Source: Sphingomonadales bacterium
Lineage (GTDB): Bacteria; Pseudomonadota; Alphaproteobacteria; Sphingomonadales; Sphingomonadaceae
Assembly (NCBI GenBank): GCA_028868335.1
Contig: JAGWUU010000003.1
Coordinates: 1-38,571 of the forward strand
DNA length: 38,571 nucleotides
Direction of reading: 5' to 3'
How positions within the stretch are numbered: the first letter of the stretch is position 1; each line of letters starts with the position of its first letter. The translations under genes were made by a program, and so were the position numbers. This document shows, piece after piece, positions 4,163 to 8,830 of the stretch. The notes beneath the pieces are model-generated. The model did no database searches. It saw nothing but the letters and a program-made list of their open reading frames with translations, and was not told where the DNA came from.

Positions 4163-4317
4163 TGGTGGCGGCACAAGTCCAGCGCGACCGCACACTCTAC
4201 TCGCAGGTCTATCACCTGCCGTCCCAGCTTGCCCGCGCCCGCGCGAGGGTACGCCAGCTTGAAGCGCAGGCGCGGCGGCTGGGGATGACGGAACTTCTGG
4301 AGCGCGGCCCCGCATGA
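4162..4317 (+). CDS. Small hypothetical coiled protein (51 aa)
   Basis: ATG at 4162; end overlaps helicase ATG. Confidence 0.45.
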   Translation: MVAAQVQRDRTLYSQVYHLPSQLARARARVRQLEAQARRLGMTELLERGPA

Positions 4318-5687
4318 TCACCCTGCGCCCCTACCAGCAAGCTATGATCGACGAGGCCCGCGCGGCCTATGCGCGGCGGGAACGCGCAGTGCTGTTCCAG
4401 CTTCCGACCGGTGGCGGCAAGACCGTTACGGCATCGACCGTCGTTCACGGCGCGGCGAACAAGGGCAACGTGACGTGGTGGCTGACCCATCGCCGCGAAC
4501 TTGCCGGACAGGCTAGCCAGACCTTCCATAATCTCGGCATTCCGCATGGCACGGTTCAGGCCGGGCACGTCTCGAACCCGCGCGCCTCGGTTCAGGTGGC
4601 ATCGATCCAGACCATCGTGCGCCGGCTCGACGAACTTCCGGCCCCCAACCTGATCGTGTTCGACGAGGCTCACCACATGGGCGCGGCGCAATGGGAGATG
4701 ATTTTCGACCGCTTCCCTGCCGCGCGCATCCTCGGCCTGACCGCAACTCCATGGCGCCTCGACGGTCAGGGCCTCGGAAACTGGTTCTCCCACATGGTTT
4801 CGGGGCCGACCACGGCAGAGCTGATCGGCAACGGCTCGCTCTCGCCTTACCGCCTGTTCGCCCCGGCCACGCCCGACCTGACCGGCGTTGCCACCACGGC
4901 GGGCGATTTCCAGCGCGGCGCGCTCGCCAAGGCGATGGACAAGCCGGCGATCGTCGGGGACGCGATCGGGCATTATCAACGCCTGTGCCCGGGCAAGCGC
5001 GCCGTGGCCTTCGCCGCTGGCGTCCAGAACAGCATCAACATCGCCAGCCAGTTCAACGACGTGGGTATTCGCGCCGAACACGTCGACGGATCGATGTCCG
5101 CCGAGGCGCGCGATGCCGCCGTCGAGCGCTTCCGGCGCGGCGAAACCTTGATCCTGTGCAATGCCGACCTTTTCGGCGAGGGCTTCGACGTTCCGGCGAT
5201 CGAGGCGGCAATCCTGCTGCGGCCGACCAAATCACTGAGCCTTCACCTGCAACAGGTCGGGCGCGCACTGCGTCCCTGTGAAGAAAAGGCCGAGGCGATC
5301 ATTCTCGATCATGCTGGCAATTCGCTGACCCATGGCCTGCCCGATGACGCCCGCGAATGGTGCCTGGCCGATCGCGAGAAGAAGAAGCGCGCCGCCCCCG
5401 CCGATGTCGCGATCCGTTCATGCCCGGAATGCTTCTACGTCTATCGTCCCGCCCCGCGCTGTCCGCAGTGTGGCCATGCCGCGCCGGTCGTGGCGCGCGA
5501 GATCGAGCAGATCGAGGGCACGCTGGCCGAGGTCAAGCGGGTTGAGCCTCGCGCCAAGTTCCGGGAGCAGGGCAAAGCTGGATCACTCGAGGCTTTGATC
5601 GAGCTTGGCCGGTCACGCGGGTACAAGTCGCCTGAATTCTGGGCGCGGCGGGTTTGGGCCTCTCGGCAAGGGAGGCGCGCAGCGTGA
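4314..5687 (+). CDS. Superfamily 2 DEAD/DEAH-type helicase with C-terminal zinc ribbon
   Basis: Walker A FQLPTGGGKTVTA, DEAH motif VFDEAHH, GLTATPWR, QQVGRALRP; CPECFYVYRPAPRCPQCGH. Confidence 0.92.
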   Translation: MITLRPYQQAMIDEARAAYARRERAVLFQLPTGGGKTVTASTVVHGAANKGNVTWWLTHRRELAGQASQTFHNLGIPHGTVQAGHVSNPRASVQVASIQTIVRRLDELPAPNLIVFDEAHHMGAAQWEMIFDRFPAARILGLTATPWRLDGQGLGNWFSHMVSGPTTAELIGNGSLSPYRLFAPATPDLTGVATTAGDFQRGALAKAMDKPAIVGDAIGHYQRLCPGKRAVAFAAGVQNSINIASQFNDVGIRAEHVDGSMSAEARDAAVERFRRGETLILCNADLFGEGFDVPAIEAAILLRPTKSLSLHLQQVGRALRPCEEKAEAIILDHAGNSLTHGLPDDAREWCLADREKKKRAAPADVAIRSCPECFYVYRPAPRCPQCGHAAPVVAREIEQIEGTLAEVKRVEPRAKFREQGKAGSLEALIELGRSRGYKSPEFWARRVWASRQGRRAA

Positions 5688-6157
5688 AGCAGATTGAACT
5701 TTCCGCTGGGCGCGGGATCGTGCTGGTTTCGGACTGCGACTTTGAAGCATTGTCGGCTTTCCGCTGGCACCTTCACAGCGCGGGATACGCCTATCGCGCG
5801 CAGAAGAAATCCGGCAAGCAAACCAATTTTCTGATGCATCGCCAGATCATGCAGCCCGAAAAAAGCATGTTGGTCGATCACATCAACGGTAACAGATTGG
5901 ACAACAGGCGCGAAAATCTGCGCTTGGCTACCCATGCCCAGAATGCCTGCAACAACGCTGCGATCGTCGGCACATCGGCGCGGCGCGGCGTGAGCTGGCA
6001 CACATCGCGGGGAAAATGGCGCGCGACGATCAAGGTCGATGGGCGAGCCCGACATGTCGGATATTTTGCGACCGAGGACGACGCGGCTGCTGCTTACGAT
6101 AAGGCGGCAACTGATCTGCATGGGGAGTTCGCGCGACTCAATGAGGTGCAAGCATGA
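5684..6157 (+). CDS. HNH homing-type endonuclease with AP2-like DNA-binding domain
   Basis: VDHINGNRLDNRRENLRLAT (HNH) and GVSWHTSRGKWRATIKVDGRARHVGYFATEDDAAAAYDKAA (AP2); GTG start overlapping helicase stop. Confidence 0.9.
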   Translation: MKQIELSAGRGIVLVSDCDFEALSAFRWHLHSAGYAYRAQKKSGKQTNFLMHRQIMQPEKSMLVDHINGNRLDNRRENLRLATHAQNACNNAAIVGTSARRGVSWHTSRGKWRATIKVDGRARHVGYFATEDDAAAAYDKAATDLHGEFARLNEVQA

Positions 6158-6477
6158 GCCAGCCCCACAACGATCTTGTCCGCAAAATCCGCCTCTACCT
6201 GTCCGAGATCGGCGCAATGTCGGTTCCGGTCGATACCCCCGGCATGCTCTACACCCGCGATGGACGCCCGGCGAAGTTCGGGATCAAGGGCACGCTCGAC
6301 ATTGCCGCTACGGTCAAGGGCCGCGCGGTGTGGATTGATGCCAAAATCGGACGGGACCGCTTGAAACCGGCTCAACAGAAATTCGCCGCGGCACAGGAAC
6401 GCGCCGGGGGCATCGCCTTCGCCGCCTGGTCGGTGGGCGACGTTGAAGCCCGCCTGACCAAGGAGGGCCTGCTGTGA
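6154..6477 (+). CDS. VRR-NUC domain nuclease
   Basis: GIKGTLDIAATVKGRAVWIDAKIGRDRLKPAQQKF matches VRR-NUC style; ATGA overlaps. Confidence 0.8.
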   Translation: MSQPHNDLVRKIRLYLSEIGAMSVPVDTPGMLYTRDGRPAKFGIKGTLDIAATVKGRAVWIDAKIGRDRLKPAQQKFAAAQERAGGIAFAAWSVGDVEARLTKEGLL

Positions 6478-7109
6478 TCAACGCCATCTCCGAACTGTGG
6501 TTCGCCCGCGCCAAGGATAGCCCGGCCAAGGCGTGGTGGGGCGCCAGCCTGGACCGTGCCCCGGTGTTCCGCGCCCTGCGCATCGGCCCCAATGACGCCG
6601 GTGCGGTCTATGCCGCAGCCCCCTTTCGCGTGGCGCGCGATGCCAACGATCAATGGTGCGTGCTGGCAGCGTGGCCCAGCCCGGCGCTGTTGGGCGATCC
6701 AGATCCCGACTGGCTGGGAATCGAAACCGTGCTGGCGTGGAATCCGCTGGCCAATAGCGTGCAGATCCTTGGCGATACCATGTCCCAGCTCGTCGGCGCG
6801 TTCGAGCGCAGCGATCAGGGCACCCTCTTCGGCCAGCCCTTCGCCTTCTTCCGGACATGGGTCGAACAGCGCGCGGCCTTCGCCACGGCCTGGCAGGCGG
6901 CGCGATCGGCCCATTTCACCACCCCCCCGCCCGAAAAGGACACGCCCGGAATGCTGATCGTGGGTGATGCCCAGAAAGTCCTATGGCGCGGCCATGATCT
7001 GCCCGAGACACTGAACTGCGTCGGGATCGATGCCGCCACGGTCAACAAGGCGATCGTGCGCAGCGCCAACCTGCCCCGCGCGGTCAGTGCAATGAGGGCG
7101 GCGGCGTGA
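6474..7109 (+). CDS. Hypothetical replication-module protein (211 aa)
   Basis: ORF with overlapping junctions between VRR-NUC and VirE genes. Confidence 0.65.
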   Translation: MINAISELWFARAKDSPAKAWWGASLDRAPVFRALRIGPNDAGAVYAAAPFRVARDANDQWCVLAAWPSPALLGDPDPDWLGIETVLAWNPLANSVQILGDTMSQLVGAFERSDQGTLFGQPFAFFRTWVEQRAAFATAWQAARSAHFTTPPPEKDTPGMLIVGDAQKVLWRGHDLPETLNCVGIDAATVNKAIVRSANLPRAVSAMRAAA

Positions 7110-8323
7110 TGGCGGATGCTATTCCCCTCAACGCCTGGAAGGGCCGGCTCGCCTCGTCCAAGCAGGGCTACAAGAAGAGTATCACCAACCTGATGCTGTT
7201 CCTGAAAAACCTGCCCGACCTTGGCCCGGCGATCCGCTGGAACGAACTGGCCCAGCGCACGGAATGGAACGGCGCGGCGCTCGAAGATCATCACCTGATC
7301 GACATGCGCCTGATTCTGGAGCGCAACGAGTTCGATCCCTCGGTGGCGGACATGCTCGGCGCGGTCAATCGCCATGCCCGCGAGAACGCTTACCATCCGG
7401 TGCGCGACTACCTGCGCGCGTTGAAATGGGACGGCACCCCCCGGCTCGATCACTGGATGCACGCCACTCTCGGCGCGCCCGATACCCCGTTCGTCCGCGC
7501 CGTAGGCCGCAAGACCTTGATCGCCGCCGTGGCGCGCGCGTTCAAGCCGGGCTGCAAGGTCGATACCGTGCTTGTCCTCGAAGGACCGCAGGGCATTCGC
7601 AAATCGACGGCCATCGCCGCCCTGTTCGGCCCCGAGGTCACGGCGGAATCGGTCAACCTGTTCGACCAGCACAACAAGATGGTCATGGCCATGATGGGCG
7701 CGTGGTGCGTCGAACTAGCCGAGTTCATCGCGATCACCCGGCGCGACGAGAACACTGTGAAGGGCATGCTGTCGATGCGCAATGACCGCGTCGTGCTGCC
7801 CTATGCAAAAATGGCGTCGGAACACCCCAGGCAGTGCGTGTTCTTCGGCACGATCAACCCGGGCGAAGCGGGCTACCTGACCGACAGCACGGGCAACCGG
7901 CGCTACTGGCCGGTCGAAGTGACCAAGGCCGATGTCGAACTGATCGAGACGCGCCGCGACCAGATATGGGCCGAGGCGTTTCGCGCCTTCATGGCCGACG
8001 AACCATGGTGGCTGACCGACGCCGAGGAAAGTCTTGCCGCGCGCGAAGTCAGCAGGCGCGAGGAAATTGACGTATGGGACGAAATACTCGCGGCCAAGAT
8101 GGCCAAGCAGGAAGCCGACGACTATGCTCCGATCGGCTCATTGACCATCGGCGCGGCGTTGCAAATGATCGGCGTTCCGAACGAACGCATGGACCGAAAA
8201 GCGCGCGACAGGGCCGCTTCCGCGCTGCGCCGGCTGGGGTTCACGTCGAAGTTTGCCAAGGAGCGCGACGAAGCCGGCAACCGTTCGTCGGTGCGTATTT
8301 TCTTCCGGGGAGACGCGCCATAA
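7106..8323 (+). CDS. VirE/VapE-type phage primase/helicase ATPase
   Basis: PVRDYLRALKWDGTPRLDHWM, EGPQGIRKSTAIAALFG (P-loop), TDSTGNRRYWPVEV typical of virulence-associated E family. Confidence 0.88.
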   Translation: MMADAIPLNAWKGRLASSKQGYKKSITNLMLFLKNLPDLGPAIRWNELAQRTEWNGAALEDHHLIDMRLILERNEFDPSVADMLGAVNRHARENAYHPVRDYLRALKWDGTPRLDHWMHATLGAPDTPFVRAVGRKTLIAAVARAFKPGCKVDTVLVLEGPQGIRKSTAIAALFGPEVTAESVNLFDQHNKMVMAMMGAWCVELAEFIAITRRDENTVKGMLSMRNDRVVLPYAKMASEHPRQCVFFGTINPGEAGYLTDSTGNRRYWPVEVTKADVELIETRRDQIWAEAFRAFMADEPWWLTDAEESLAAREVSRREEIDVWDEILAAKMAKQEADDYAPIGSLTIGAALQMIGVPNERMDRKARDRAASALRRLGFTSKFAKERDEAGNRSSVRIFFRGDAP

Positions 8324-8337
8324 GCGCCCCGCCCACC

Positions 8338-8626
8338 TGTCCACCAGCCTGTCCACTAGGGTGTCCACCAGCCCACGGCGAAGCTGTATCTAGTGGACAC
8401 TTTGTTCATATTTCACCGAATAAAGATGAATTATTTGTCCACCATCCCACTTGTCCACCAATCCAAAACATGGCTAGTGGACACGATGGTGGACACCCTA
8501 AGTCCATAGAAATCAGACATTTTTCTGCCCTGTCCACTATCTTTTCTCTAATTTCTAAAAAAAGAAGAATAGAAGAGAAAAACGCCAAACCAAAGGAATA
8601 CGCGCGCGAGGGTAGACAGGTGGACA
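8338..8626. repeat. Iteron-like array: 10 exact TGTCCAC/GTGGACA heptamers in AT-rich non-coding DNA; candidate replication origin
   Basis: TGTCCAC at 8338, 8350, 8362, 8436, 8452, 8531; GTGGACA at 8393, 8477, 8489, 8620. Confidence 0.8.
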
Positions 8627-8647
8627 CCCCCACCAAGGAGGCGAGCC

Positions 8648-8830
8648 GTGGGTGAGCAATTCCTCGCAGGGGCCATCGTCGGCGCGGCCAGCGTGGTCGA
8701 GGTGCTGGTCATCCGCGCCATCCTCGCCGAGCGCCGCCGCATCGCCAAACGCCGGTTTCGCCGTGCGGTGTTGCGCGGGTTTGCCGATGTCGTGTTCCCG
8801 CCGGTCCATGTGCGGCGGGGGATGAAATGA
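8648..8830 (+). CDS. Small membrane-associated hypothetical protein (60 aa)
   Basis: GTG at 8648 preceded by AAGGAGG. Confidence 0.55.
   Translation: MGEQFLAGAIVGAASVVEVLVIRAILAERRRIAKRRFRRAVLRGFADVVFPPVHVRRGMK

Follow-up and report, generated by a model that had tools for sequence, protein, structure and literature searches.

A putative iteron origin behind the VapE helicase gene of a temperate myophage, with repeat words that covary with the predicted VapE wing

Results

Gene content of the phage and its replication module

The window analysed here, that is, the whole stretch of 38,571 nucleotides of contig JAGWUU010000003.1, carries a temperate myophage with a CI-like repressor, a replication module, terminase, portal, capsid, tail sheath, tape measure, baseplate and endolysin. 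The lack of structural genes that marks PICI satellites was not observed, as terminase, portal, capsid, sheath and baseplate are present. A locus from a genome of the same genus matches the N. mathurense locus in score and repeat words, suggesting that the phage host is probably Novosphingobium. The replication module lies on the forward strand, with an SF2 helicase, an HNH/AP2 endonuclease, an endonuclease-like gene and an unknown gene (4314-7109) followed by the VapE gene (7106-8323) and then by a repeat array, and a candidate for the next gene was located at 8648-8830 on the same strand. VapE is the only gene of the module that is present in 37/37 relatives. The HNH/AP2 endonuclease gene (5654-6157) has no counterpart among the 37 relatives and is therefore probably a mobile insertion. 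The gene at 6474-7109 has no match in Pfam or PHROGs; in most loci VapE is preceded by a strongly diverged homologue or positional counterpart of it.

The VapE gene, our proposed initiator gene, encodes a helicase of 405 aa with a VapE-like domain (PF05272, E 2.7e-69, 233 bits at a cut-off of 25), a match to the helicase family phrog_256 and a match to PriRep1 (PDB 7PDS, E 4e-50), which is the closest solved structure by sequence and fold and is bound to dsDNA. The molecule in 7PDS is named 'Similar to D. nodosus vapE', and PriRep1 is itself VapE-type by sequence. The first-pass annotation of this DNA had called the protein a primase; what was found is the helicase domain, and no primase domain was detected in VapE or the upstream proteins by the Pfam and PHROGs scan, though a diverged primase may be present among the scanned proteins. 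Its guess of a small winged-helix-like region at the C-terminus agrees with the AlphaFold2 model, in which residues 322-404 (8072-8320, forward strand) are predicted to form a winged-helix domain with block pLDDT mostly between 72 and 89; the central helicase region was modelled with low confidence. The beta hairpin of this domain, referred to here as the wing, covers about residues 377-400 (8237-8311, forward strand).

Organization of the repeat array

Ten exact copies of TGTCCAC, six forward and four reverse, were recounted within 289 bp (8338-8626) at the positions annotated before, and the distance from the VapE stop to the first iteron is 15 bp. The array begins with three forward iterons in 12-bp steps (8338, 8350 and 8362; 8338-8368), followed by a reverse iteron (8393-8399), an inverted GTTCAT...ATGAA element (8404-8430), two forward iterons (8436 and 8452; 8436-8458) and two reverse iterons separated by a 12-bp step (8477 and 8489; 8477-8495). 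The ninth iteron, on the forward strand (8531-8537), forms the left edge of a candidate unwinding element (8538-8597), which is followed by a GGAATACGCGCGCGAG box (8595-8610), a one-mismatch reverse copy GTAGACA (8612) and the tenth iteron, also reverse (8620), the last two spanning 8612-8626. The inverted element and the GGAATACGCGCGCGAG box, both recognised by alignment, are widespread among relatives and are common to many arrays regardless of the repeat word.

The GC content of the segment is 49.4%, against 63.3% for the window, and within the 38.6-kb window, duplex stability over 300 bp is lowest at 8337-8636, in line with the earlier description of this region as the most AT-rich part. 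The purine-rich stretch that had been put forward as an unwinding candidate (8555-8582) falls inside the 60 bp of lowest stability in the window (8538-8597), and this AT-rich segment is bracketed by the forward iteron at 8531 and the reverse copies at 8612 and 8620, as in origins of the SaPI/PICI type. Only two further copies of TGTCCAC occur in the remaining 38 kb of the window, and shuffling predicts 3.75 for the whole window. The commonest heptamer in the 400 bp 3′ of the VapE stop is present 10 times, whereas no heptamer exceeded 3 in 200 dinucleotide shuffles. The genome-wide count suggested in the first-pass annotation was carried out as a pattern search of the 3.05-Mb assembly; same-strand pairs of TGTCCAC 3-30 bp apart were detected at four places, all inside the array, and the heptamer forms no such cluster elsewhere in the assembly. 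A chance cluster of repeats was ruled out by the shuffle counts and this pair search. The GC skew, another suggested check, has no inflection at the array. The contig ends share no common terminal k-mer, and an Rfam search returned nothing above the gathering score, with two sub-threshold miRNA-family matches only.

Distribution and diversity of the arrays

The close-relative sample consisted of 38 VapE loci from viral contigs and genomes. For genome contigs, a single-sequence scan gave 0 loci and an alignment-based scan gave four, and a later scan of viral contigs gave almost only known contigs, so the collection looks saturated for this VapE family. An over-represented word was observed directly 3′ of the VapE stop in 38/38 close relatives, and in about two thirds of the distant VapE loci the 400 bp after the stop contain no significant array. 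A comparison of the relatives' downstream regions, proposed earlier as a check of conservation, revealed that the array and its position are conserved (38/38), but the repeat word itself is not. Twelve repeat words, curated by hand from k-mer counts, were obtained across the relatives, for example TGTCCACC, TGACTACA, TGTCTACG and TGTTACCACC. Type I words include TGTCCACC, TGTCCACG, TGTCTACA/C/G, TGACTACA and TGGCTACA, and type II words, which are two bases longer, include TGTTTCCACC, TGTTCCCACC, TGTTACCACC and TGTTCCAACC.

The layout of the arrays is largely common. The 5′ part has two to three direct repeats spaced at 11-12 bp, frequently a reverse copy, and further copies; the 3′ part has one or two forward copies, a purine tract and one or two reverse copies. 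In many type I loci the inverted GTTCAT...ATGAA element is placed between the first repeats and the further copies. Copies inside one array mostly carry the same word, suggesting that the arrays evolve in concert. One locus (L079) has the orientation flipped relative to the other relatives, with AGGTCGTGGA where these carry forward copies; its word looks chimeric, combining the type I CCACG with the type II ACCT, and its wing resembles the CCACG wings.

VapE with a downstream array was also found on plasmids, namely E. coli pLAO97 (L159/L166), a 12.9-kb Serratia plasmid (L160), Komagataeibacter pKNA06 (L165), a Roseomonas plasmid and a phage-like S. aureus plasmid. On pLAO97, VapE is the only recognised replication protein, with no other Pfam replication domain among the proteins scanned. 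The array words of the small plasmids (L159/L166, L160 and L165) include TGTTCCACCC and TGCCACCC. Pseudomonas phage U5 harbors VapE with the array one gene further on, and an Enterococcus locus contains VapE with TGTCTACC repeats.

Repeat words and the predicted VapE wing covary

With the body distance removed, the distance between repeat words correlates with that between wings at a partial r of 0.70 in type I and 0.74 in type II (partial Mantel; the permutation tests remove common ancestry only in part), and the profile peaks at the wing. The corresponding within-class values were 0.03 and -0.16 for the N-terminus and 0.15 and 0.02 for the upstream gene, and for the preceding helices of the winged-helix domain the correlation was lower than for the wing or absent. 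When both word classes were pooled, the upstream gene gave a partial r of 0.51, which was read as clade structure, and therefore only the within-class tests were relied on. At matched body distance, wings resemble each other more in pairs of loci that share a word. The near-swap pair L029 and L042, with a body distance of 0.05, a helix distance of 0.03 and a wing distance of 0.57, carries the words CCACG and CTACG. With respect to residues, wings with PRK occur with TGA, PRH (L025) with TGG, and KTYRxW or a close variant with CCACG. Two later-found loci were compared in the same way: the wing of L218 is closest to that of L042, and both carry TGTCTACG, while the wing of L219 is closest to the TGACTACA group, and its word is TGACTACA. 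By these sequence comparisons, changes of the repeat word follow the VapE wing much more closely than they follow the helicase body, the N-terminus or the upstream gene, and the protein-site pairing that the first-pass annotation had proposed gains support from this covariation and from the predicted fold of the C-terminus.

An open frame across the array

The array had been described as apparently non-coding, which is incomplete: the -1 frame relative to VapE is open across the whole array (8326-8655, forward strand, part of an ORF at 8074-8655) and ends inside the first codons of the next gene candidate, though its product lacks conservation at the codon level. Among 34 non-redundant loci, 28 have no stop in this frame over about 255 bp, where shuffles predict 1.3, and the remaining two forward frames are open in one and five of the 34. 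The frame usually starts with an ATG or GTG that overlaps or abuts the VapE stop (ATGA/GTGA), and in 22/28 loci (strict criterion; background 31%) it ends at or a few bases from the start of the next gene. Where the coupled start is present the frame is open in 27/28 loci, and where it is absent the frame is closed in 5/6 (Fisher p 1e-4); the single exception among the start-less loci is this window, in which ATGA reads ATAA and the frame is still open. Eight later loci comprised three open and one closed with the start, and none open and four closed without it, giving a one-sided p of 0.07 alone and about 1e-6 in combination, for loci that are not fully independent.

Mismatches in the -1 frame are level over the codon positions (0.264/0.273/0.263), against 0.237/0.211/0.412 for the VapE control. 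Frame sharing between aligned pairs is at chance level, about 0.36, and GC is flat over the codon positions. An ordinary coding repeat was ruled out by the absent codon periodicity and the flat codon-position GC. The array is kept in five loci with a closed frame (L010, L014, L020, L021 and L219). In two distant VapE loci from the same host family (L212 and L213), an open -1 frame running from GTGA to ATGA follows VapE, and in L212 it contains CCGAACCCC repeats.

Discussion

We consider it very probable that this temperate phage replicates from the array, with VapE as the initiator. The origin reading, already raised in the first-pass annotation, is favoured by the position and layout of the array, its low duplex stability, the arrays in all close relatives (38/38), the VapE and array units on small plasmids and the covariation of word and wing. 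The C-terminal winged helix of VapE would bind the TGTCCAC iterons directly behind its own gene. Oligomers of VapE might form on the iteron sets to both sides of the purine-rich stretch of lowest stability, melt this stretch and self-load as the replicative helicase, while host or other phage enzymes would provide the primers. The wing would contact the variable bases of the repeat, so that array and wing would change together and lineages would carry private words.

The array might instead control transcription, as a set of operators for VapE or for a different regulator of the phage. Sites that are numerous, scattered between genes and present in both orientations would suit operators, and the covariation shows only that the wing is matched to the sites. 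However, VapE is a helicase and not a member of a known repressor family, the unit of VapE and array accompanies small plasmids, and three iteron groups around a least stable segment are typical of origins (PMC6092414), so we regard this explanation as improbable. Still less probable is an origin whose repeats are read by a protein other than VapE, either the 6474-7109 product or a host factor. A counterpart of the former does stand before VapE in most loci, but it hardly covaries with the word within classes (0.15 and 0.02, against 0.70 and 0.74 for the wing), on which reading by the upstream gene was rejected, and a host factor would not account for 12 words. That the -1 frame encodes a conserved protein with the array as a by-product is very unlikely, since, for all its openness in 28/34 loci and its coupling at both ends in most, its codon positions mismatch equally, its frame sharing stays at chance, its GC is flat and the loci with a closed frame retain the array.

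Under the origin reading, the nearest relatives are known from satellites and other mobile elements. In SaPI Rep, the C-terminal domain is reported to read iterons directly downstream, and the C-terminal domain of Cch2 from SCCmec binds its own repeats (PMC7581432). In PICIs the origin is located 3′ of rep, and its iteron sets lie on both sides of an AT-rich region (PMC6092414). VirE-type ATPase domains are predicted to be helicases of mobile elements, and in primase families with such a domain a C-terminal winged helix might recognise origins (PMC5862659). As in SaPI/PICI rep-ori, PriRep1 and Cch2, short iterons grouped around an AT-rich segment come here immediately after a helicase-initiator gene, and the 38 relatives likewise have the iterons directly after the helicase gene; the C-terminal domain reported as the reader in SaPI/PICI and Cch2 corresponds to a predicted winged helix. 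Since PriRep1 (7PDS) is the closest solved relative and the array appears to be read by VapE, the array would by analogy be a self-loading-helicase origin of the SaPI rep-ori kind, placed in a temperate myophage. Unlike the SaPI/PICI systems, this phage has structural genes, no primase was found adjacent or fused to the helicase (Pfam, PHROGs), the iterons are more numerous and form several groups, the words form a matched series over relatives, and an open frame runs through the array. Phage P4 alpha is also a helicase-initiator with a C-terminal origin-binding domain, but a primase-helicase of another family, and the P4 origin iteron GGTGAACA is close to GGTGGACA, though the P4 origin layout differs. 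Our literature search, within the papers and terms it covered, found none linking VapE with iterons.

The nearest precedent for a translatable origin would be the lambda ori inside gene O (PMC7466680). In lambdoid phages, iterons lie beside an AT-rich, strand-asymmetric segment in an open frame (PMC7466680; PMC4488673), and the same arrangement is seen here. However, the lambda frame encodes the initiator, whereas the present array comes after the VapE stop, in a separate -1 frame that lies behind the initiator gene and has no conserved sequence. Judged from the frames and their codon positions, it seems that ribosome passage across the array, and not the product, is under selection. Ribosomes would restart at the ATGA on the VapE stop, translate in the -1 frame through iterons and unwinding element alike and pass on to the next gene, and stop codons would be purged by selection blind to the amino-acid sequence. 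The benefit might lie in coupling with the gene that follows, or in shielding the mRNA from polarity or premature termination. We put forward only tentatively, as something short of an even chance, the combined proposal that origins of VapE phages are kept translatable, with ribosome passage rather than a protein as the function, and that the VapE wing is a readable code of iteron words.

Concerted change of repeats and initiator is known from other replicons. In geminivirus Rep, the iteron-related domain covaries with the repeats (PMC2974675), and in PLE, RepA and its origin covary, probably driven by the origin-directed nuclease of ICP1 (PMC8263062). The repeat words and the DNA-binding part of VapE change together in a similar manner, but these initiators are unrelated to VapE, geminivirus Rep being a rolling-circle endonuclease and PLE RepA a RepA_N protein. 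Extra origin copies block lambda (PMC4488673). By analogy with these systems, titration or origin-directed attack may be selective reasons for the switching of VapE words.

The array would work like a SaPI/PICI rep-ori, placed in a phage that carries virion genes of its own and no recognised primase, and it comes with a wing-word series and an open frame that could be translated. The relatives provide a natural series of matched initiator-origin pairs inside one protein family, in which the members of the near-swap pair differ by a single base of the word and, in the protein, by little more than one hairpin. The code by which self-loading VapE helicases from phages, satellites and small plasmids recognise their origins thereby becomes directly testable, and the series suggests how VapE replicons might evade cross-talk, titration or origin-directed attack. 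The open frame, if its translation is confirmed, would represent a case in which translation itself is selected and the product is not.
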